Below are positions 15,233-30,700 of a DNA stretch of 64,000 bases, in pieces. The translations under genes were made by a program, and so were the position numbers. Under the pieces are notes generated by a model that ran no database searches, was not told the origin of the DNA, and worked only from the letters and a program-made list of their open reading frames with translations. The DNA lies in NCBI GenBank assembly GCA_030407315.1, contig JALQPE010002521.1, forward strand, positions 1 to 64,000, written 5' to 3'. Each line of letters starts with the position of its first letter. The stretch's first letter is position 1. This DNA is from Asparagopsis taxiformis. Its lineage: Eukaryota; Rhodophyta; Florideophyceae; Bonnemaisoniales; Bonnemaisoniaceae.

Positions 15233-15499
15233 ATGTCACAGAATCCTTCATCCCCCTCTCCCATCCAAGCCGCACGCCCGTCTCCAATCCAACATCAACT
15301 GGAGATACCCTCTCTGACTCACACGAATTACATCCCCTGGAAAATTAGCGTGGAGCACTTCGCACACGCGCAACAAGTCCATGACTACCTCCTTCATCCC
15401 ATTCCACCCTCCCCAGACCTTGCGATCAACAGCTCGCACCGAGAAAAACACACTCAGGCACAACTACTCGTTGTGTCTACTCTCTCTCTCCTGAAATAA
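15233..15499 (+). pseudogene. Copia-1 gag N-terminal part
   Basis: 88 codons from ATG 15233, alignable with the gag of the element at 36.5 kb (HTNYIPWKISV against HTNLIQWSLSI). It ends at TAA 15497-15499 just after a CT-rich run (15483-15491), while the rest of gag continues in another frame. A two-base slip in the CT run explains this. The stop and the next ATG overlap as TAATG, so re-initiation on the following frame is possible. Confidence 0.75.
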
Positions 15500-18400
15500 T
15501 GGAGCAATTCACCGACGATACACTGTCCGGACCCATACACATCCTCTGGGCAGCGATCAAAGATCTCCTCACAGCAAAAAATCCCGCCCACACTCCTGAA
15601 CACCTCCGAAGACAAGCCCGCGCCATCAAGTGGCAATCCTCCATGACGGTTATGGACTACATCACACAACATCAAAGTGTACGCAAGCTGATGATCCGTG
15701 CGAATTACCCCGAGATTGCTAACGAGAACACAACTATCAATTTCATACTCGAAGGCCTTGAAGACCATTCGGACTGGACATCTCTGCTACTCACTATCTC
15801 CGCGCACAATGATCTTCATCCCACTGCTCCGATCTCTCAGGCTCACCTCATCACATTAATGTTTAAGCATGACGAGATCAACAAGCGCTCAACGTCATCA
15901 GCAGGACCAAGATTTCGCAAACCAAACCCTCGCCAATTTCACCGTGGCAAAACCTCCCCTCGTCCCACTCGCAATGCACCCTCATTTCATTTTAACCCCA
16001 AGAACAATATCCAGCCACCCTCTGGCTATTTTGGCCAATGGTGCAAATACCATGGTTCTACTGGACACGACACGGACGCCTGCCGCTCATATGCAAGATC
16101 AACGCGCCTTGCTAACCCCTTTCCCAGGCAATCCCGCAAATACAACACCAAACCACAGCCTACCGCACACTACACTGAGCAGTACTCCCGTGATGACACC
16201 CAAGACAGTGACGATGAGGACGTACGTGACCAGTCATCCTCCTTCCTCCTCGACTCTGCCGCTAATCCCTCGCACCTAACCTCTCCACCCCCCGGTTTCG
16301 AAGCAGTATCCTCTTGCACAATAACTGCGGATGGCCACCCTGCCACTTCCACACATCGTGGTAACCTAACAATAGAGATGGACGATGATAATGCTCTCCC
16401 AACACACCCAGCGATAGTAGGCCCTGGCCTGAGGGCAAATCTTCTCTCTGTAGGGCATCTTACTAAAACAAATGACGTCGTCTTCCAGCGAAACCATGCG
16501 TTTATCACAGAACCAGCTCCTCCTCCACCTATTGACACAATTGTTGCCACTGCTCACCGTCGCAAAGACAACATGTTTGAACTTGTTGCCAGGTCTCCAC
16601 CGAACACTAAAATGACTAGCACGTCCACTGCTAATACTGCACGCGCCTTCCCTGTCCGCACTTCAACATCATCTCAAAAGATGCCAGTCTCGAAGAAACC
16701 CCTCCACAAACCACTAATCGCTCGAAACAAACGAGTTACTCCAGTAACTCGCAAATCCACTCGCGCACCCAAGTCCCACCCCCGTATCAACACGCGAGCA
16801 CGCTCCCGCATTCATGTCGAATTACCCTCGACAATCCGTGATTACCATTTCTGGCACTTGAAACTTAACCACATCCACCCCCACAAACTCCACCAAATGG
16901 CAAAACATCGCCTAGTTCCCAACCTGCCTCGCAGTCTCCTACGCACGCCCCCTCACTTGACATGTTCCGGCTGTGCTGTCGGAAAAACGGCTGCAGCCCC
17001 CTTTCGCAAGCACCCGCGTCGTGATCCCATAGGCTCACATCTCCACTCTGACATTTATGGGCCCCTTCCTGTAGACTCTATTCATGGTAACAAATACGTT
17101 GCCACCTTCCTCGACCAAGGCAGTCGATACCTGCACATATTCTGTGCCCCCTCGAAGTCCCTCGCCGCTGCTCATACAAGCACCCACGTTGATCATGTCC
17201 ATGCTACTACCCCTCATCGCATCCGACACTTCACCTCGGACAACGCCAAAGAATATTACACTCACGACCTCACCAATTTCTTTGCAGATTTACACATATG
17301 CACTCATCCAAGCGTTCCACATACACCACAAGAAAACGGTCTTGCAGAACGCATAAACCGCACTCTGTCAAATGACGCCCGATCCTGTCTACTCACTTCC
17401 AATCTCCCAGCATCACTTTGGGAATATGCTTTCCACTCATGCGTGGACACTTACAATCATACTATTCACACAGCAACAGGACGAATTCCACACTCCTTGT
17501 GGACAGGCACTACACCTGAAATACACACCCTGCTCCCATTCGGAACCGCTGGACATGTGCACACTCGGGCACCGCGAAACAAACTAGAGCCCCGCGCCAT
17601 TTTCGCGCATTATGTCGGTCGTCAAGACTACTATCACTACTATGTATACGACCCTATCAATGACAAAGTTTTTCGATGTAGGATTGCCGACTTCCAGGTG
17701 TACTATCCCGTCGATGATCCCGTCTGCACCTCTAGCCCACCATCAGTTCATCACACATCTACTCCGTACACCGAACTGAACTCCATCAACCAAGCCCGCC
17801 GAGCACCTGATGCTCCACAATGGGCACTTGCCTGTAATTCTGAATTAGACAGCCTTGAGGAACGTGGCATTCTCACCTACGTACCGAAATCAGACCTCCC
17901 TTCCGACACCAAATTACTACCAACCACTATGGTTTTGAAGCTCAAAAAGGACAAGGACGGTACCCCTCTCCTGCGCAAGGCACGTTGCACCATACGTGGC
18001 GACAGACAAGTACCAGGAGTGCACTACGACCCTACACAGCTCTCCAGCCCTGTTGCCCACCGCGATGCTATTCGCACATCCATCGCTCTAGCAGCCGCTC
18101 ACGGCTACCACATACACCACTGGGACCTTGAGTCCGCTTTCCTTCATGAGCTGTTCACTGACGACATCAACATATTTATTCGCCAACCCAAACGTTTTGA
18201 TGGCAGTGAAAAACACCCTGGCAAAATCGCAAAGCTTACTGGTAACATGTATGGCAGTAAACAAGCCTGTACCATATTCACCTCCGGTTTAGCGAAATTT
18301 CTCACGCTCTCCAACTTTGAGCGTCTATCATCAGACGCCTGCTCATTTGTCCTCCGCAGCCACTCCGACCGTTCGCATTTCGTCCTCCTGGTTATCACAG

Positions 18401-19365
18401 TGGACGACTTCCTCGTCACGTCCAACAGTCTGCAACTGCTCTCCAAGGTTAAAGATCAACTTCGCCAAAAGTACAAACTTAAAGACCTTGGCCGTGTTGA
18501 ACATATTCTTGGGTGGAAGGTGACGCACACTAACGCCGGCATCAAAATATCCCAACCTGATTATATCAAAACACTTCTCGAAAAGTTCCGCCTCGCCGAC
18601 GCCAAACCCACGTCATCCCCAATTGCGTCTGAGCTCCTTGCTCCGCATCAAACCTCTTCCAAACCCCTCAACACCTCAGAATACGACTACAAGGCACTCA
18701 TTGGCTCTTTGCGGTATCTAGCCGACTCCACTCGCCCAGAAATTTCGTTCATCGTAGGGCTCCTTGGACGCCACACAAAGGCTCCAACAACACACCACTG
18801 GCAGGATGGACTTCGTGTTCTCCGCTATTTGAAGTCCACTCCCGATAATGGCATACTATACAAGAACAGCTTCACCACTCCATTGAAAGCATACTCTGAT
18901 GCTGATTTTGCAGCCTTCCCGCTCACACGAAGGTCCACAACCGGCACACTCATCATGTATAATGATGCTCCAATAGCATGGCAATCTAAACGACAGTCTC
19001 ATGTCTGTCCGTCCACCCATACTGCAGAATACGTAGCTGCCTTCCATAGTGCGATGCATCTCACCACCATACGCAACTTCCTTGCTGAACTATCTCACGC
19101 TCCTACCGACCCAACGCCTCTATACATTGATAATACCGCATCTATAGCCACGGCAACCGCGCAATTCCCCACTCCCAATGCACGCCATATCGATGTGAAG
19201 TATCACTGGCTACGGGAGCAGATTGTCCAAGGTATCATCAAGCCTATACACATATCTTCCAATCTTAACCCAGCTGATGTCTTTACCAAATCCCTCAAAC
19301 CAGCGCAATTCACATCCAAACTACCTCTTCTTCGCCTCACAGTGCCCACGACGCGCGGCGACTGA
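15499..19365 (+). CDS. Copia-1 gag(C-terminal)-pol polyprotein
   Basis: 1,288 codons. Order: rest of gag; a C-H-H-C zinc knuckle (CKYHGSTGHDTDAC) near residue 181; a protease site LLDSAA near 250 (DSA in place of the usual DSG or DTG); integrase with HHCC near 450-495, then HSD (about 516), TSDN (about 580) and PQENGLAER (about 613); reverse transcriptase with TVDDF near 967 (the usual YVDD has T in place of Y); RNase H from YSDADFAAF near 1132. This integrase-before-RT order defines Ty1/copia. The frame is intact, but gag is broken upstream, so autonomous movement is doubtful unless re-initiation works. Confidence 0.9.
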   Translation: MEQFTDDTLSGPIHILWAAIKDLLTAKNPAHTPEHLRRQARAIKWQSSMTVMDYITQHQSVRKLMIRANYPEIANENTTINFILEGLEDHSDWTSLLLTISAHNDLHPTAPISQAHLITLMFKHDEINKRSTSSAGPRFRKPNPRQFHRGKTSPRPTRNAPSFHFNPKNNIQPPSGYFGQWCKYHGSTGHDTDACRSYARSTRLANPFPRQSRKYNTKPQPTAHYTEQYSRDDTQDSDDEDVRDQSSSFLLDSAANPSHLTSPPPGFEAVSSCTITADGHPATSTHRGNLTIEMDDDNALPTHPAIVGPGLRANLLSVGHLTKTNDVVFQRNHAFITEPAPPPPIDTIVATAHRRKDNMFELVARSPPNTKMTSTSTANTARAFPVRTSTSSQKMPVSKKPLHKPLIARNKRVTPVTRKSTRAPKSHPRINTRARSRIHVELPSTIRDYHFWHLKLNHIHPHKLHQMAKHRLVPNLPRSLLRTPPHLTCSGCAVGKTAAAPFRKHPRRDPIGSHLHSDIYGPLPVDSIHGNKYVATFLDQGSRYLHIFCAPSKSLAAAHTSTHVDHVHATTPHRIRHFTSDNAKEYYTHDLTNFFADLHICTHPSVPHTPQENGLAERINRTLSNDARSCLLTSNLPASLWEYAFHSCVDTYNHTIHTATGRIPHSLWTGTTPEIHTLLPFGTAGHVHTRAPRNKLEPRAIFAHYVGRQDYYHYYVYDPINDKVFRCRIADFQVYYPVDDPVCTSSPPSVHHTSTPYTELNSINQARRAPDAPQWALACNSELDSLEERGILTYVPKSDLPSDTKLLPTTMVLKLKKDKDGTPLLRKARCTIRGDRQVPGVHYDPTQLSSPVAHRDAIRTSIALAAAHGYHIHHWDLESAFLHELFTDDINIFIRQPKRFDGSEKHPGKIAKLTGNMYGSKQACTIFTSGLAKFLTLSNFERLSSDACSFVLRSHSDRSHFVLLVITVDDFLVTSNSLQLLSKVKDQLRQKYKLKDLGRVEHILGWKVTHTNAGIKISQPDYIKTLLEKFRLADAKPTSSPIASELLAPHQTSSKPLNTSEYDYKALIGSLRYLADSTRPEISFIVGLLGRHTKAPTTHHWQDGLRVLRYLKSTPDNGILYKNSFTTPLKAYSDADFAAFPLTRRSTTGTLIMYNDAPIAWQSKRQSHVCPSTHTAEYVAAFHSAMHLTTIRNFLAELSHAPTDPTPLYIDNTASIATATAQFPTPNARHIDVKYHWLREQIVQGIIKPIHISSNLNPADVFTKSLKPAQFTSKLPLLRLTVPTTRGD

Positions 19366-20642: not shown

Positions 20643-20647
20643 TTTGG

Positions 20648-21030
20648 TGTTCGTAGGCTACACTTGTTCGTAGGCTACACTATGTAGCCCACACTATTCA
20701 ATCTACATAAAAGGTAGGCTACAATATGAATCAATTTGTAGGTAACACTATATTCCGTTTTTGGTCACTCAGACGGAAGTTCCTACACTATGCTACCTAT
20801 GTTTTGAATTCGCTAGCCACCTAGGATTGTAGTTGTAGAAGCTAGAACTAGAATAAATAGGCGACTTGCTCCGGAGCCGAGGCAAGATCATCCACCATCT
20901 TTACCATCAACAACCACCTCATCAACACGATCATCCCCCAGCGCGAGTATTCGCGATACACCGGCGTACCGTGCGCCAATCAAAACCGAACACTTGTCAT
21001 TTTTAATTTCGGGAATCGTTTTTCCCATCA
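20648..21030 (+). repeat. Copia-3 5' LTR
   Basis: 383 bp. It holds a short direct repeat of TGTTCGTAGGCTACACT at its start, a TATA-like AATAAATAGG near 20852 and, downstream of it, a leader without ATG. Confidence 0.92.
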
Positions 21031-21149
21031 CTTGCAAGTCCGGGGAAACTTCTTTCCCAAAATCAAAATAATCTGAAAAAAGGGCAAAAAGGCAAAAAAA
21101 AAAAAAAGAAAGAAAGAAAAAAGCCAAAAGCTCATAAAAAAGCCAAAAG

Positions 21150-21192
<43 letters not shown>

Positions 21193-21356
21193 AAAGAAAA
21201 AAAGAAAAAGATTTTTACACGTGTGCAAAGGACTAATTTCACCCTGCGGTCATTATCCTATCAGATAATATCACTTTGTGGACATTTTTCCCCTGAATTT
21301 TCAAATTCTTGTATACTTCGGTATATTTTCACTCGCTGCAAATAATCGAAAGAAAA

Positions 21357-21420
21357 GTAAGTTGAAAAAAAAAACCAAAAGAAAAACATTTCAAAAAGGA
21401 GATTGCTAACCTACTTACAG
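21357..21420 (+). other. Predicted 64-nt intron in Copia-3
   Basis: Donor GTAAGTTG at 21357, branch-point-like TGCTAAC at 21404-21410 and acceptor CTTACAG ending 21420. Joining ...AGAAAA (to 21356) with TGGCTCG (from 21421) makes AAAATGG, a start codon in good context (A at -3, G at +4), for the zinc-finger ORF. Predicted from sequence only. Confidence 0.7.
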
Positions 21421-21845
21421 TGGCTCGTTGCAAGAGGCCCGAAAACGACCCCGCGGTCCTTCGCGAAAGGGCCCTCCGCAGCCGACCAGCCAATCGGGCT
21501 TCCGCTTCCTCAGCCAATCAGGCATCTTCCTCGACAGGTGGCCTCCAAGTATTGGACGACCGCGCATCTCGACACATTCACCGCGTCGCAACCGACAGGA
21601 TCGAAAAACGCACTGTAAAGCCAGCGAAGTGTAAGCTCTGTGACCGCACCTTCACCTCTCGCAAGCAGTTGCTTATTCATAGGGGATCTAAGGGTCACAA
21701 AAACAAATTAGAGAAGACCGAGTTAGAGAAAAAACCCCTCCGCTGCGATATTTGCGACATAGACTTCAACAGCGTGCACAACTTCGACAACCACCAATTT
21801 GGTGACAAGCATCGCAACGCTAGGCGCAAAGCAGAGAATAAGTAG
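21421..21845 (+). CDS. Retrotransposon-borne double U1/JAZ-type C2H2 zinc-finger protein
   Basis: 141 residues, begun by an ATG made at the predicted splice junction (A of 21356 plus TG of 21421-21422). The frame itself contains no ATG. Two zinc fingers have exactly C-x2-C-x12-H-x5-H spacing: C71, C74, H87, H93 and C109, C112, H125, H131. This is the long-linker spacing of U1C/JAZ fingers, many of which bind double-stranded or structured RNA. The N-terminal 70 residues are Arg/Ser/Ala-rich. The stop is 75 nt before the gag-pol ATG. Such an accessory ORF upstream of gag-pol is unusual for Ty1/copia elements. It may bind the element's RNA, aid export or packaging, or interfere with host RNA silencing; none of this is shown. 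Confidence 0.75.
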
Positions 21846-21920
21846 TACAATTAAAGGGTAATTCATACGATCAATTGAAACAGATCTGAATTAATTGTTC
21901 CCTTGTACCAACTGTACATA

Positions 21921-24900
21921 ATGGCGACCCCATACGATGACAATCCTACTTGGGTCGCTCTTGGAAATCTCAATACGTGCAACGACATACAAAAATCGAT
22001 GACAGGAGCTGCCGCTGCCCTTATCACACTAGAACCACCTGAAGACGAGTTCGCCACCACCTTTTGCGAATTATTCCCCCCGCAATTCCTGTTCCATAGG
22101 GACTGCTTACCCAACACAGCTCTCTTCTCCCACATAAGAGCTATCTGCGACAGCAATGGTCACCGAATCCCGAGACGATCTGGCCTAATGATCGCAAAAG
22201 CTATAGCAGAGAAGATGTACCCTGATGACCTCAAGCGAGAAGCATTACAACTAATCTCAGATTCTCGAAAGGACACTAGTCAGCCCGTCATTGTCACTTC
22301 CACAGATCGTGAGCCGGCACCACCGCAACATACTTATAATACGCCGGACATATCGCGTAAGGTTGACGATACCGCTCGTCACTTCTCAGAGAAACAGAAG
22401 TACAGTGGTATCCTTGGCGAGAATCCTAGTCTCCCAGAAACAAAAAACGCCTACCTGACATACTGTCATGACAAAAGTTTTTCTCCATCAGAAAAAGTAC
22501 AACTTGTCCATTATGCCTTACGTGGACCGGCTTGGACGTTCTGGTCCAGTCACATCCGAGATAACCCTGCTATCACTCAAATAGGCTCCGTATTCGATTC
22601 TCTCACGAACAAATTCGATACTGCGACTCACCAGAAGCAGATTGACCATATCATATCGTCACTGTCGATGAAAGAAACTGCCCATAAGTTACAATGCGGA
22701 ACTGTCCAAGCACTCGGACACATATACAACGAAATAGACCGGCTCAACCCCCAAGGGACAAAATCTAAACGTGGTGAAGTTTTCAAAACTGAACAACTCC
22801 TCCACGTAGTAGATAACTTCGAGTGGGCCCAGAATGCTAAGAAACGAACTCTTGGAGAGAACTTATCATTCGCACAGATATACTCCGAGCTATCTAGTTC
22901 AGCTTTACTCTGGGAAGAGTCCCAGCGAAAGAAGGGTTTAGATACGTCTATCACTAGTGACCACAGTCACTTTGCCGACCATATGACTTCCATTCACTAC
23001 GGTGCTAGGTATGCCAACCCGCACCATAAGCGTCACACCCGAAACTCAAGTTTCAAAAATCGCAACAAATCAGAAGTCACGTGCTACCGCTGTTATAAGA
23101 AGGGGCACTACGCATTCAACTGTCGAGAACAGAAACGCATGACTATGAACGACGCCGTGCGCAGCAGAATCCGAAACCAACATGAACATCCCGTCCAAGC
23201 TGCTGCCAAAATCCTCTTCGAGCTGACTGAACAATACGATGAGCATGAAGCAACCGAGGAACACAATAAGGATGACATAGCAGATGACACCTTCAATGAC
23301 TTCTTGTCAAGCTGTATATCGGACGAGAACAATGATGCACCGTTACCGTTTGGAGATATAATTCCAGAACACGAACAGAACTATCTATCCAAAATCTTCC
23401 ATGTTCAAATACCAATTCAGAATCTCAAACGATATCTCAACAATTCTATCCATGCATTCAAGGGAGCATTATTTGACACTGGAGCAGAAAAGACGGTCAT
23501 TGGCGTAAACCAAGCCCGTGCCTATTGTAATGAAGCAGGGATACCCTTCGAACCCTTCAAATCAAAATCAAAATTCTCTTTTGGAAACTACTCCACTTCC
23601 TCCATCGGATGGATGAACATTATACTTCCCACACCATCTGGATTCAGTACCATTAGAACTGACATCATCCCTCAAGATATACCACTTCTAATAGGCCTCG
23701 ATTCACTGGATAAAAACAAATGGAACGTTCTTACTGTCGAGAATTCCCTTCAATCCGTCCCTGAAGGTTGGAATATACCTCTCTCACGTAAACTCGGACA
23801 CATCTACATGACTTGGAAAATACAGTTTAAGAATTTTTTCTCCAAAGCCCAGTTGACACGAATTCATAAACACATGTTCCACCCCAGCTCCAAGAAGCTA
23901 TATGAGTTTCTAAACAAAGCATCTCCAGAACAAATGACGACCGAAACAAAATCGCTTATCGAAGATATCACAAAAAGTTGCCACCCTTGTCAATCTTTCG
24001 CACCGAAAGCCATCACTTTTCAAATCAGAGACAACGACAATGTCAGATTCAACCAGGAAATCAAATTAGACCTGATGTTTCTGGACAGCAAGCCCGTATT
24101 ACACATAATCGACTCTGCAACCAACTTCAGCGCGGCAAGGTTCATCCCGAAACAAGACACAACCACAGTTTGGAACACTTTTCTACAAGCATGGGCTAAC
24201 TGTTACATTGGATTCCCAGAAAGCATGCTCACGGACCAAGGATCAGTCTTCGTATCCAAAGAATGGACAACGTCATGTCATTCATCAAACATAGACCTTC
24301 GTCACACAGGGACAGAATCCCACAACTCACTAGGGAATGGAGAAACTTATCATGCTATGCTACGACGCATTTACAACAAAGTCAGACTTGAACACCCAGA
24401 TTTCTCTCCCGAACTCGTACTCTCGCTATCAACAAAAGCAATGAACGACACTGCAGGTCCCAATGGACTCGTGCCAACCCTTCTAGTATTCGGCGCCTTA
24501 CCGAACATACCGCATATCAAACCACAGTCAAAGTCACAACAGGAACGCCTTACAGCAATGAAGTCAGCAAGAAATGAATTTGCGAGAATCATCTCCTCTC
24601 AAAAATTGAATCGAGCTTTACGCAAAAACCCCCCTCCTTCCACAGACTTCGACATCAGTCCTGGAAACATGGTTTACGTATACCGAGAACGCTTTAAACA
24701 ATGGACAGGTCCTCATATTGTCATTAGCAACGACAGAAAACAGGTGCTGGTTGACCTCGGGGAAAGGCAAGGATCCCGACACTACAACATTTCAAGTGTC
24801 AAACCAGCACTATTCCCTTCCTCAAATCACTCTGAATCGTCGAAAATCTTCTTCACTGAAATAATTAACAAAGGGGACCCCCGCGAAAAACTTTTTGAAG

Positions 24901-26357
24901 ATGCGAAAAGAAAGGAAATTGAAGGACTCATCAATCGCGGAACTTTCAAAATTGTACTCCAAGAAGATTTACCCGAAAATGCAAATATAATACCCTCTCG
25001 TTTTGTACTCGCAATTAAGAATGGCGAAAACAACAAAGAAGTCCTCAAAGCTCGATTTGTCCTTGGAGGACATCGAGACAAAGAAAAAAGAACAATTGTT
25101 CACAATTCGACGACTCTGAAACAATCCTCAATCAGAATTCTCCTCGCCATGGCAAGCATATTCGGCTTCAAAATATGGTCCACCGACATTAAACAGGCTT
25201 ACCTACAGTCTGCATCTAAATTGAAGCGTGACGTTTTCATCAAGCCAAACATCATGGAGTTGAATCACGGAGAACTTCTACAAGTCATAAACCCTCTCTA
25301 TGGACTCACAGATGCTGGTGACTATTGGGGTGAAACATTGCATTCCCACCATGTTAAAGACTTACGAATGAAGCAGACTACAGGAGATTTCTCATTATTT
25401 TTCAAACATATCGGAAACAAACTCGTAGGAATGTCTGGATCTTACGTTGATGACATAATTCGTTGCGGAACGAATAAATTTGAACATTCATCACAACACA
25501 TGACCGCTTCTACCTTTGACACCAAAAAGCCCGAGAGAAATTCTTTTACCTTCACTGGACTACAAGTTAAAGACGGAAATTACTCAAAATCCTTATCGCA
25601 ATCAGAATATATCGGAAGACTTGAATTACTTAAATCCGATTGCTCTTTCGAAGACTTCCGATCCACGAGAGCAAAGTTGAACTGGTTAACGAACACTCGT
25701 CCGGACATAGCCTTCTCCGTTTCCAGATCTTCTACCGTCACCTCGAATACATTCCAGTCAAATCATATACGCGACATTAACCGCGTGATAAAACATTTGA
25801 AGAAAACGAAGTATCGCTCTCTTCGCTTCCCAAAACTTGATCAAGATTCACTGCGTATCACAACATACTCAGACGCATCATTCTCCAATAACGATGATAA
25901 TTCGTCCCAAATCGGATTCATAATATTACTCTCAGATGCCACGAACAATTGCGCTATTCTGAGGTACTCTTCATATAAATCCAGACGCATTGCCAGATCT
26001 TCTATGGCAGCTGAAACATTCGCTTTTGCTGATGCATTCGACGCTGCATATGCAATCAAGTTTGATCTTGAAAAAGTGTTAAACAAAAGTATCCCTCTTC
26101 TCATGTTGACTGATTCTAAGGCTCTCTTCGACGTCATTACAAGATCCAAATACACTACGGAAAAAAGGCTAATGATAGACATTGCAGCTGCACGTCAAGC
26201 CTACAACGAGAAAGAGATCAATAACATTGCCTTGATCAAATCCGAGTTTAACCCTGCCGATGGTCTAACCAAACTTGCATGCAATGAAGCTCTAAAACAA
26301 CTTTTGGAAACTCACAAGATCTCTCATCCCGTTGAACAATATGTGATCGAGCATTAG
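21921..26357 (+). CDS. Copia-3 gag-pol polyprotein
   Basis: 1,478 codons from ATG 21921, which is the first ATG in any frame for about 1.1 kb. Order: gag; CCHC knuckle CYRCYKKGHYAFNC near residue 387; protease LFDTGAEKT near 518; integrase zinc region H-H-C-C (CHPCQSF) near 690, acidic residues in IIDSATN (about 733), LTDQGSVF (about 770) and GNGETYH (about 800, variant of the usual QNGxxE); reverse transcriptase with SYVDDIIRCG near 1174; RNase H with YSDASFSNN near 1315. The integrase-RT order is copia-type, but motifs differ clearly from Copia-1, so it is a distant lineage. No frameshift or internal stop, so it is likely functional. Confidence 0.92.
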   Translation: MATPYDDNPTWVALGNLNTCNDIQKSMTGAAAALITLEPPEDEFATTFCELFPPQFLFHRDCLPNTALFSHIRAICDSNGHRIPRRSGLMIAKAIAEKMYPDDLKREALQLISDSRKDTSQPVIVTSTDREPAPPQHTYNTPDISRKVDDTARHFSEKQKYSGILGENPSLPETKNAYLTYCHDKSFSPSEKVQLVHYALRGPAWTFWSSHIRDNPAITQIGSVFDSLTNKFDTATHQKQIDHIISSLSMKETAHKLQCGTVQALGHIYNEIDRLNPQGTKSKRGEVFKTEQLLHVVDNFEWAQNAKKRTLGENLSFAQIYSELSSSALLWEESQRKKGLDTSITSDHSHFADHMTSIHYGARYANPHHKRHTRNSSFKNRNKSEVTCYRCYKKGHYAFNCREQKRMTMNDAVRSRIRNQHEHPVQAAAKILFELTEQYDEHEATEEHNKDDIADDTFNDFLSSCISDENNDAPLPFGDIIPEHEQNYLSKIFHVQIPIQNLKRYLNNSIHAFKGALFDTGAEKTVIGVNQARAYCNEAGIPFEPFKSKSKFSFGNYSTSSIGWMNIILPTPSGFSTIRTDIIPQDIPLLIGLDSLDKNKWNVLTVENSLQSVPEGWNIPLSRKLGHIYMTWKIQFKNFFSKAQLTRIHKHMFHPSSKKLYEFLNKASPEQMTTETKSLIEDITKSCHPCQSFAPKAITFQIRDNDNVRFNQEIKLDLMFLDSKPVLHIIDSATNFSAARFIPKQDTTTVWNTFLQAWANCYIGFPESMLTDQGSVFVSKEWTTSCHSSNIDLRHTGTESHNSLGNGETYHAMLRRIYNKVRLEHPDFSPELVLSLSTKAMNDTAGPNGLVPTLLVFGALPNIPHIKPQSKSQQERLTAMKSARNEFARIISSQKLNRALRKNPPPSTDFDISPGNMVYVYRERFKQWTGPHIVISNDRKQVLVDLGERQGSRHYNISSVKPALFPSSNHSESSKIFFTEIINKGDPREKLFEDAKRKEIEGLINRGTFKIVLQEDLPENANIIPSRFVLAIKNGENNKEVLKARFVLGGHRDKEKRTIVHNSTTLKQSSIRILLAMASIFGFKIWSTDIKQAYLQSASKLKRDVFIKPNIMELNHGELLQVINPLYGLTDAGDYWGETLHSHHVKDLRMKQTTGDFSLFFKHIGNKLVGMSGSYVDDIIRCGTNKFEHSSQHMTASTFDTKKPERNSFTFTGLQVKDGNYSKSLSQSEYIGRLELLKSDCSFEDFRSTRAKLNWLTNTRPDIAFSVSRSSTVTSNTFQSNHIRDINRVIKHLKKTKYRSLRFPKLDQDSLRITTYSDASFSNNDDNSSQIGFIILLSDATNNCAILRYSSYKSRRIARSSMAAETFAFADAFDAAYAIKFDLEKVLNKSIPLLMLTDSKALFDVITRSKYTTEKRLMIDIAAARQAYNEKEINNIALIKSEFNPADGLTKLACNEALKQLLETHKISHPVEQYVIEH

Positions 26358-26389: not shown

Positions 26390-26772
26390 TGTTCGTAGGC
26401 TACACTTGTTCGTAGGCTACACTATGTAGCCCACACTATTCAATCTACATAAAAGGTAGGCTACAATATGAATCAATTTGTAGGTAACACTATATTCCGT
26501 TTTTGGTCACTCAGACGGAAGTTCCTACACTATGCTACCTATGTTTTGAATTCGCTAGCCACCTAGGATTGTAGTTGTAGAAGCTAGAACTAGAATAAAT
26601 AGGCGACTTGCTCCGGAGCCGAGGCAAGATCATCCACCATCTTTACCATCAACAACCACCTCATCAACACGATCATCCCCCAGCGCGAGTATTCGCGATA
26701 CACCGGCGTACCGTGCGCCAATCAAAACCGAACACTTGTCATTTTTAATTTCGGGAATCGTTTTTCCCATCA
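26390..26772 (+). repeat. Copia-3 3' LTR
   Basis: 383 bp, with no differences seen by eye from the 5' copy; preceded by the purine tract AGAGAGGGAAG. Confidence 0.92.
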
Positions 26773-26777
26773 TTTGG

Positions 26778-27743: not shown

Positions 27744-30700
27744 CCTCCGATCTACTTTCCAGATATGCCCATTCTCCAACTCCCCCCGAGCATCAATGAA
27801 TGTGGCCCGGATGCTTGTGAGCAGCCTGCTATCTTTCAGTGTCGCTTTCGTACTTGGTTTCGTCGTGTCTTCTGCTACGCATGATCTCAACTCAAATCGA
27901 TGCAGTGTGCAATGTGCTCTTTTATGCCTTGTTTCCTATCATCTCGCCGGAGGTGTGGACTTGCCTCAGTACATAACGCTACTATCTTGCTTCCGTATAG
28001 TCGTTTTCTTGTTCCATATTGATTCCTTCTTCGAACAGCTCCTATAATTCGCTTCAGTTAGCAGAAGTGATTGTCAATCCCTGCAAAATGCAGAAACCTG
28101 TTGCCAATCTCACCGTTTGAAAGTGTCTCAGCAGTTGAACCACATATTCAGATTACCTCGAGTATTAAATCTTCTCACATCTGGCCAGTGCATTCACGTA
28201 GATGTAATACGCGCGTCACGAAAGGGATCAATGGTGCCCGCAAACTGAAACTAATTGTTCCGCCTTTCACGTAGAACCAGAGGACAGTGCATCTCGGCTG
28301 AGACCCAACTGGAGGATACTTCAGGCTCCTAACAACTCTCTCTTATCACACTGCAATACTCAATCAAACCCCGTTCCCAATTGCACCGGAATCACAAGGG
28401 AGCTCGCCCATCTCACAAAGTCACTTCCATCCAAAAGCCAAGCTGTCGGCGCATCGGAGTCGCTAGTTCGTTGCATGCTTCGCAGAAGATATCTCCGAAT
28501 TTTCGTCGTCATGGGAACCTCAACACTAGGTTTGTACGCAATGTACGAAAAGTTCAGACGTTGACCCGTTCGAAAGCCTGTTTCGCGAGCAAATACGTAC
28601 ATATCAGCGGTTCTGCCGTTCCAGCCAGCATGTCACCGCTGATCTGTTCCGCATAATAAATAGCACTATTTCCCACAAACTTGACGTCCACTCGCAGAAG
28701 CACCGTGAGAAAATTATATAGCAGATATTGCAACAACAAACGGAGGTGTAAGTCGATGATCAAGGCAGTGCTGAGAGCGAAGATTGCAGATGTGACACTA
28801 TCGCCGAAGTACGCGGAACGGAAATGAACGCTGAATGAGCTGATGCAGTTATTTCTTGGCGCGGTTCCGTGCCTGCTGCCAGGGGGAGATGCTCATTGTC
28901 CCGGCGTTCTACTGGTTGACACTGGATTACTGCAGAGATGAGGATTCGCTATCATCTGGGAACGACTCGGAAATCACACGCATCTAACAACACAAAGGCT
29001 ACAGAAGACATCTCCACAAACAGCAGGTACACAAGTCTCGACAGTCTGCCAGGTCGTCATGCTCCAACGAAATACGCATCCCCGCACTGAGCACAATGAC
29101 ATGCTGGACAGGTGACAAAATCAACTGTTAGATATGAGGTGGTACAAATGAGGTTGAGGAGACATGTCACGCGAGACGTATGGGCTGCCTGCCAAAGACA
29201 ATGCGCGATGACGGGTCATTCGGGTGTCGACGTAGGCTGGACTTGACATTGAATTTGTCGGAACATGGCCGGCGCACGACAGTGAATGAAGACTGAAGTG
29301 GAGAGCGGTCTGCGCGATGATCGAGGTCGCGAGATAAGCATGTCGGCAGTGAGTGCGATTGGGAGTTGAAGTGTCTGTGAAAGCGTTTAAAAATATGGAA
29401 AAAGTGTTAGACTATAAAGAATGTTGTGCCTGCGCAGACACTAGAGTTGGCATGTCGCCTGGTTATATGGATATCCCAACGGAGCGGAGCCGATTGGCCA
29501 GGGAGGAGATGAGGGATATGAATATCCCAACACGCCCCCGCTCCCTGGGCAAGCGGTGAAGCGGTAGGAGGCGTAGTAGCCTGAGGCGTTGGAGCCTGTC
29601 TTGAATAGATAAGAGTCTTGTTGTTGACTTGTCGTAGCGGGATTTGTCGTCGCTGTGAATTGATTGGCGGTAGTTGCGTCGCCGTGTTGAATAAATTATG
29701 ATGCAGCGGTGCTCGTGAGAATCGAACTCACGCAGTCCGGTTAGCGGTAACGGCCCATAACCTGTTAGACTATAAAGAATGTTGTGCCTGCGCAGACACT
29801 AGAGTTGGCATGTCGCCTGGTTATATGAATATCCCAACAAAAAGAGTGTCAAAAATTTAGGGAGATCGACATTTGAGACACTGAGATCAACATATACACT
29901 ACTGAATCGCGGGAGTGTCGGATCGTTGAATGTCACACACGACTCTTCACTCGGCCGTATGTACTTCAAGCTGACGAGTTTTGAGCCATTGTTGAGCGTA
30001 TTCACCGTGTGCGCAGCGGAGTTCAGGCGATGGTCGGAGTCCTGGGCAGCGCTTGTTTGGGATAGTTGAGCACGTTGATAGCGGATGTTTGACGCTGGCC
30101 AGCATGCAAAAAGTGTGCGCATCCATCCACCCGTCGCGCAGCGTCCACAGCAACATGTGGTCTGCAGCGGTAGTAGGTGAGCAATGCGCTCGATGCATTT
30201 ATTGCAACTGCATCTGACGGCAGATGCCGATTGCGTCACGTGACTAGAATTGTTATGTGTGTTCTTGTGTGGATACATGCGTTTGGCAGTTTTTCCAGAT
30301 GCATCGTGTATTCCACGCTGCGCAATACGTTCCATCAGCGTATCGTTGGACACATCCATCTGTGGGCTAAATCTAGTTCCACATGCGCTTCGCTCGCTCT
30401 TTTGTACTCTCAGCGCTGGTTGATATGCATTGCGCAGCATGATCTCAACACGTGCATCGTTGTTCCTCGAGAACGAATAGTTTATCCAGACTGCGTCAGC
30501 ACCGTTGGTCTTCTTAGCACCTCATTCAAGTACTACGAAGCATGATACTGAAACGTTATCCATGACCGTGTTTATTGATAAATGCTATAGTGGGACAAGT
30601 AGTCTATAATTGGTCATCGGTTTCACTGCGTCCCAAACTCCCACAACACTCCAGTTCCATGCTCGTATGGTCATCGGTACATACACACTACATGACCGTT

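Follow-up and report, generated by a model that had tools for sequence, protein, structure and literature searches.

Retroviruses make the small RNA-binding regulators Rev, Rex and Tat from spliced mRNA and Gag-Pol from unspliced RNA. It has long been asked how long terminal repeat (LTR) retrotransposons split one RNA between several products and reverse transcription. In the barley Ty1/copia element BARE1, partial splicing removes a 104-nt intron located just past gag, and the spliced RNA makes Gag only (PMC3735527). In rice tungro bacilliform virus (RTBV; Caulimoviridae), splicing of the leader fuses a leader upstream open reading frame (uORF) to ORF IV for expression of P4 (PMC5902531). The Ty3/gypsy element Ogre carries a long leader with a 550-codon open reading frame (ORF) of unknown function before gag, and predicted splice sites of unknown relevance occur in Diaspora, also Ty3/gypsy; no introns upstream of gag had been reported by 2005 for any LTR retroelement, Ogre included (PMC1142308). 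Here, we describe a Ty1/copia element of the red alga Asparagopsis taxiformis in which removal of a leader intron is predicted to create the start codon of a double zinc-finger (ZnF) protein encoded ahead of gag-pol. The element lies within a 64 000-nt stretch of DNA (contig JALQPE010002521.1, positions 1 to 64,000, assembly GCA_030407315.1), the whole of which is referred to as the window; the features are on the forward strand, apart from the target-site duplications, which have no strand.

The predicted intron is 64 nt in size (21357–21420), with GTAAGT at 21357, TGCTAAC at 21404–21410 and CTTACAG ending at 21420, all present where the initial annotation had placed them, and has the GT..AG ends and the branch motif at normal distance expected of a U2-type intron. 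The 5' exon (21031–21356) is free of ATG and ends in the A of the prospective start codon, while exon 2 (21421–21845) opens with the TG of the split ATG and ends with the stop codon of the ZnF ORF. Joining of AAAA to TGGCTCG yields ATGGCTCG, with A at −3 and G at +4 (sequence across the joined exons: AAAATGGCTCG). As had been proposed, this junction AUG, in good context, is the only possible AUG of the 141-codon double ZnF ORF, since 21420–21845 contains no ATG in any frame. We put the probability that translation of the ZnF protein starts at an AUG made by splicing at roughly 0.8; the intron is presumably spliced in cells.

Other ZnF-bearing elements of the same genome were compared using representatives of nine families, chosen from ZnF protein matches with their leaders unseen beforehand; the families are our own groupings by ZnF sequence rather than formal ones, and L068, L069, L070 and L072 are visibly interrelated. 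The first five fetched (L068, L069, L070, L071 and L072) all had an intron directly before the ZnF ORF. In eight of the nine families (that of the window, L068–L072, L075 and L085) the exon ends in A and, after the intron, the next exon starts with TG in the ZnF frame; the ATG would thus arise only through splicing. The initial annotation had counted relatives without conserved splice sites as an outcome that would speak against it; the eight families bear out its expectation instead. The spliced products are predicted to begin with MARCKRPENDP in the window family, MARTKRASNDP in L068, MARCKRANNDP in L069, MPIKRAAKDP in L070 (MPYKRAANDP in its relative L079), MAGPRSFS in L071, MARAKRTSNDP in both L072 and L082, MDKIIVFS in L075 and MSSSDEED in L085, and the open frames ahead of the junction are without such similarity (LCRK in L069, PIIQKLTLQS in L072). 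In all eight, position −3 relative to the junction AUG is a purine and the intron carries a CTAAC or CTGAC branch candidate, the nearest being 15–44 nt from the intron end. Their 5' splice sites read GTAAGT, GTAAAT, GTGCGT or GTACGT, and the introns span 51–169 nt. The junction motifs are kept in the relatives L079, L082, L076, L080 and L081; L077 is without both. When L068/L069/L072-type places were collected by pattern, 35 of 35 read AG|TGG and none ATGG, and 73 of 75 L085-type places matched CWGCAG|TGTCTAGC (CWGCAGTGTCTAGC) exactly. A palindrome-like motif, AGTCTAGACT, is common to the leaders of L068, L069, L072 and L079 and is possibly a dimerisation or primer-related site.

The arrangement is found in more than one superfamily. 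On contig C2012 (L083), a 466-aa stretch that follows a ZnF ORF sharing 99% identity with the L071 one matches RVT_1, RT RNase H and integrase H2C2, which makes the L071 type Ty3/gypsy; together with the Ty1/copia window family this places the ZnF module with its split start codon in both superfamilies, shared either by common descent or by exchange. L075, L085 and L086 are presumably LTR retrotransposons as well; the downstream piece of L075 (L084) had no long forward open frame. Judged by sequence, many element families of this genome, both Ty1/copia and Ty3/gypsy, have this design in common. A search for relatives of other species in viral contigs found none, and a search of the contigs of other genomes gave one locus (L087), which has pol but extends just 360 bases ahead of the match.

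To describe how rare the junction is, segments around it (203–321 nt) were shuffled and scored for the full model of A, 5' splice site, branch motif and AG|TG, in frame and with no stop. The model occurred in 9 of 8000 shuffles and in 8 of 8 real segments; L086 was excluded because a different model applies to it. The blind part of this chance test is the choice of families.

Copies of the window family itself were sought with the leader in the whole genome (141 Mb, 3156 contigs), giving 29 places from which 20 copies were aligned; L056 and L057, with an insertion in the ZnF ORF, and fragments L061–L067 were left out, and L053, L054, L059 and L060 span only part of the leader. GTAAGT and TGCTAAC were present in all 20 and the 3' AG in 18, with CTG in its place in L059 and L060; the left-out L056 retains the 5' splice site and L057 is without it. 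Of the 20, 14 are ATG-free ahead of gag. Compared with the window, L055 is unchanged at all 32 splice-signal positions; the intron body has 9 changes in 33 positions, the ZnF ORF 43 in 419 and the leader segment 5' of the intron 6 in 114. Long A-rich tracts at 21075–21215 of the leader vary in length among otherwise near-identical copies. Regular head-to-tail arrays of these elements, with nearly uniform spacings of about 6446, 5950 and 6786 bp, were seen on genome (G000) contigs C2334, C1556/C1557, C2674, C465 and C1881, as if tandem copies shared LTRs.

The absence of ATG ahead of gag-pol was confirmed, and extends slightly further than first described, from 20802 rather than about 20,806. 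No ATG occurs in 20802–21920, where base composition predicts 15.9 and dinucleotide shuffles give 10.4 ± 2.5, none of 2000 being ATG-free; the initial annotation gave a chance count of about 17. The opposite strand of the same segment has 19 ATGs, and the gap of 1122 nt between the ATGs at 20799 and 21921 is the longest in the window (mean 56, next 796). It takes in a 75-nt ATG-free spacer (21846–21920) between the ZnF stop and gag-pol, which is a single ORF of 1478 aa (21921–26357) opening at the first ATG of the unspliced leader. Taking the TATA-like AATAAATA at 20852–20859, a pattern match and the sole one of its kind in a scan of the LTR, as the putative promoter core, about the last 1040 nt of the gap would be leader. 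The ZnF ORFs of L071, L075 and L085, like that of the window, contain no ATG.

The two fingers of the ZnF ORF (residues 71–93 and 109–131, about 21630–21698 and 21744–21812) match zf-met (PF12874; 1.2e-11, 45.0 bits against a curated cut-off of 21.2) and zf-C2H2_jaz (PF12171; 1.8e-11, 44.4 bits against 22.6), and the CCHH residues of both are invariant across six families at 34–40% identity. Between the window and the diverged subfamily L055/L058/L059/L060, dS was ~0.3 and dN/dS 0.16–0.22, indicating purifying selection on the protein. A genome search with the protein found many places at about 28–42% identity, the best-scoring of them having no internal stop. Protein-database matches included P0001, 93% identical and with V as first residue, and P0122, an L071-type copy; as both are possibly from the same or a near species they are not independent evidence. 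A six-family profile searched against the PDB gave weak matches, ZNF524 being best, the RNA-binding ZFa (1zu1) second and ZMAT2 lower. Locus L078 (G000 C193:103200-105800) was set aside as an element, being a host-like 450-aa open frame full of ATGs with several fingers of similar type; a host frame of this kind is a possible source of the captured ZnF module.

A number of observations weigh against a splice-made start, against its generality or against the role proposed for its product. Because the shuffle pattern was written with the motifs already known, its rate describes rarity and is not a blind test, and in L068 more than one 5' splice site fits. In the ninth family, L086, the start codon is genomic, its ATG being located in exon 1 and 7 nt upstream of the 5' splice site, and a 3' splice site is frame-compatible by reading of the sequence; the ZnF ORF of this family is intron-split. 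A spliced junction was sought in the genome with 0 matches for the window family and 0 for the L085 family, and the intron-less form was found at 0 of 35 places of the L068/L069/L072-type families, which is neutral to slightly negative, since the same would be expected whether packaging is confined to unspliced RNA or splicing does not occur at all. In L055 the leader segment 5' of the intron is well conserved too, so the conservation of the splice signals stands out only against the intron body and the ZnF ORF. One to four extra ATGs were present in six of the 20 aligned copies (L041, L052, L055, L058, L059 and L060) and also in the left-out L056 and L057; the ATG-bearing copies are mostly old, but L041 adjoins an intact gag-pol. 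L070 has, ahead of its 5' splice site, a leader ATG that is missing from L079, and L075 has an ATG-TGA between ZnF and gag. The ZnF ORFs of L068, L069, L070/L079 and L072/L082 contain one to three AUGs, of which one or more in each copy are in frame. The claim that unspliced RNA can start only at gag-pol consequently holds for the window element and fails for these last families. All nine internal AUGs there have a pyrimidine at −3 and no G at +4, and with such weak contexts unspliced RNA may yield some truncated ZnF protein or depend on leaky scanning. Many further PDB matches of the ZnF profile are DNA-binding fingers, so that RNA binding by the protein is a reading rather than a result. Close copies compared with the window gave dN/dS values that are not low, from 0.23 to 0.87 where both counts exceeded one, in small numbers, and L048 and L053 differ by 11 nonsynonymous changes and 1 synonymous change.

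Two rival accounts draw on parts of this evidence. In the first, the ZnF ORF is translated from unspliced RNA, from the conserved GTG at 21420 or by some other non-AUG route, and the intron-like motifs are coincidental; an AG|TG junction does always leave an in-frame GTG in unspliced RNA. GUG is a poor eukaryotic start, however, and neither a 5' splice site and branch motif kept at such variable distances, nor the shuffle rate, nor the exon-1 ATG of L086 before its intron is explained; we hold this account to be very improbable. In the second, the AUG-free leader serves gag-pol scanning entirely and the ZnF ORF is a captured, decaying passenger. The ATG gap ahead of gag measures 696 nt in L073 and 628 nt in L074, elements of a 52%-identical pol family that showed no ZnF ORF, and the absence of AUG is accordingly not specific to a switch. 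The excess of nonsynonymous changes between L048 and L053 and the ZnF dN/dS within the old subfamily (0.82 for L055 and L058, 1.19 for L055 and L059) point the same way, although near-neutral ratios in that subfamily are as expected of dead copies. The purifying selection between subfamilies, the invariant CCHH residues and the lack of stops in the best-scoring places oppose decay, and we hold the passenger account to be very improbable. The absence of AUG is best read as a scanning requirement of gag-pol onto which the split start codon builds. The leaders of L073 (1128–1194) and L074 (882–948) contain a GTAAGT..AAG|TGG pair whose removal would make ATG GTT ATA TAA, a three-codon ORF; this is perhaps a remnant of the same device, or chance.

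On the reading that splicing makes the ZnF start codon, one long transcript would carry a roughly 1-kb AUG-free leader, and ribosomes on unspliced RNA would scan to the gag-pol AUG at 21921. Removal of the 64-nt intron would turn the A|UGG junction into an AUG in good context, and spliced RNA would instead direct synthesis of the double zinc-finger protein (141 aa), with translation ending 75 nt short of gag-pol. Splicing would in this way choose between an accessory protein with RNA-binding-type fingers and the structural and replication polyprotein, and would presumably be partial or regulated. The initial annotation spoke of a deliberate translational switch; the splice-made start codon in that claim is strongly supported, and the switch is a matter of interpretation, regulated switching between the two products being in our view an even bet. 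Splicing could also be constitutive, the ZnF ORF being a plain intron-containing gene and gag-pol made from leftover unspliced RNA. The canonical splice signals of the window element, the occurrence of ATG-free leaders without a ZnF ORF and the absence of any sign of regulation in this sequence analysis agree with such an arrangement. As gag-pol lies behind the ZnF ORF, full splicing would be expected to starve it unless reinitiation were efficient; the families searched have no intron-less retrocopy, read here as unspliced RNA being copied, and in three families a predicted RNA structure lies directly against the 5' splice site. We think constitutive splicing somewhat unlikely.

That structure was predicted in the 140 nt before the 5' splice site, where five of five sequences (L069; L072 and L082; L070 and L079) fold into the same four-way junction, a shape defined after the folds were seen and present in 2 of 750 shuffles of the five. 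In L069 it occupies 970–1121 and abuts the splice site. The hairpins lie at similar distances (−83 to −87, −46 to −52 and −32 to −37) and differ in sequence, the last stem pairing AU UA UA GC CG in L069 and GC CG CG AU AU in L079 with complementarity kept; the middle hairpin is weak in L070. The best folds of the window, L071, L075 and L085 had no four-way junction (L068 was outside that test), and an Rfam scan of the leader gave nothing near the gathering score. A hairpin, GAATT-TTCA-AATTC, is predicted inside the 5' exon of the window element at 21295–21308. Fingers of a double-stranded RNA-binding type together with a structured element at their own 5' splice site suggest feedback. By analogy with the early/late switch of retroviruses, the ZnF protein might bind the cloverleaf RNA, block splicing and let unspliced RNA for gag-pol and packaging accumulate, a speculative scheme that we consider unlikely as it stands.

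The element is bounded by 383-bp LTRs with TG...CA ends (20648–21030 and 26390–26772) and by the target-site duplication TTTGG (20643–20647 and 26773–26777); the 100% identity of the LTRs and the flanking duplication indicate a young, recent insertion. Its gag-pol matches RVT_2 at residues 1016–1234 (1e-19, 71.6 bits against the Pfam cut-off of 31.6) and integrase rve at residues 725–796 (4.7e-7, 30.4 bits, just under the cut-off of 32.6). The integrase match ahead of the RVT_2 reverse transcriptase in one ORF, with paired TG..CA LTRs and a short target duplication, upholds the original assignment to Ty1/copia. Chondrus crispus was the only named organism among the gag-pol relatives listed (at least 120), with two proteins 40% and 35% identical, and the best matches among those listed reached 56% identity. 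A primer binding site after the 5' LTR usually begins with TGG; the bases directly 3' of this LTR (21031–21052; CTTGCAAGTCC / CTTGCAAGTCCGGGGAAAC) do not, and priming may therefore rely on an internal tRNA segment or on a different primer. No tRNA genes were found in the window. Another Ty1/copia-type polyprotein, distinct from that of the element, is encoded a short way upstream at 15499–19365 in the same orientation (1288 aa, with RVT_2 and gag_pre-integrs), and outside the element there are direct repeats, 99% identical, at 29405–29480/29763–29838 (76 nt) and 19663–19735/19851–19923 (73 nt).

Compared with the systems described so far, the ZnF protein shares its finger type with JAZ/zf-met C2H2 proteins (PF12171, PF12874; 1zu1) but is short, two-fingered and encoded by a retrotransposon, and DNA-binding fingers in the PDB match it about as well. 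The likeness to Rev, Rex and Tat is one of analogy only, and we know of no sequence relation between them and the ZnF protein. Ogre and Diaspora resemble the window element in their long leader before gag and differ in having no upstream intron reported by 2005. Among the literature matches listed, none described a splice-made start codon in an LTR retrotransposon or, since 2005, an intron before gag. Assembling a start codon solely through splicing is a very clean device, as one event decides which protein starts; its recurrence in several families of both superfamilies suggests that selection strongly favours an accessory protein ahead of gag. The arrangement is a directly testable system. 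BARE1 is likewise a copia element in which partial splicing separates RNA pools, but its intron past the end of gag creates a stop codon, with no accessory gene and no start codon made. RTBV is also reverse-transcribing and uses leader splicing for a separate protein while unspliced RNA serves other roles. There, an existing uORF is fused to a distal ORF, whereas here the AUG is absent until the junction forms and the ORF, next to a short intron, precedes gag-pol; a pre-existing leader AUG of the RTBV type does not occur in 20802–21920, and among the families examined L086 alone uses an exon-1 ATG in that manner. Neither BARE1 nor RTBV P4 builds a start codon at the splice junction, which is what the arrangement in the window is predicted to do.

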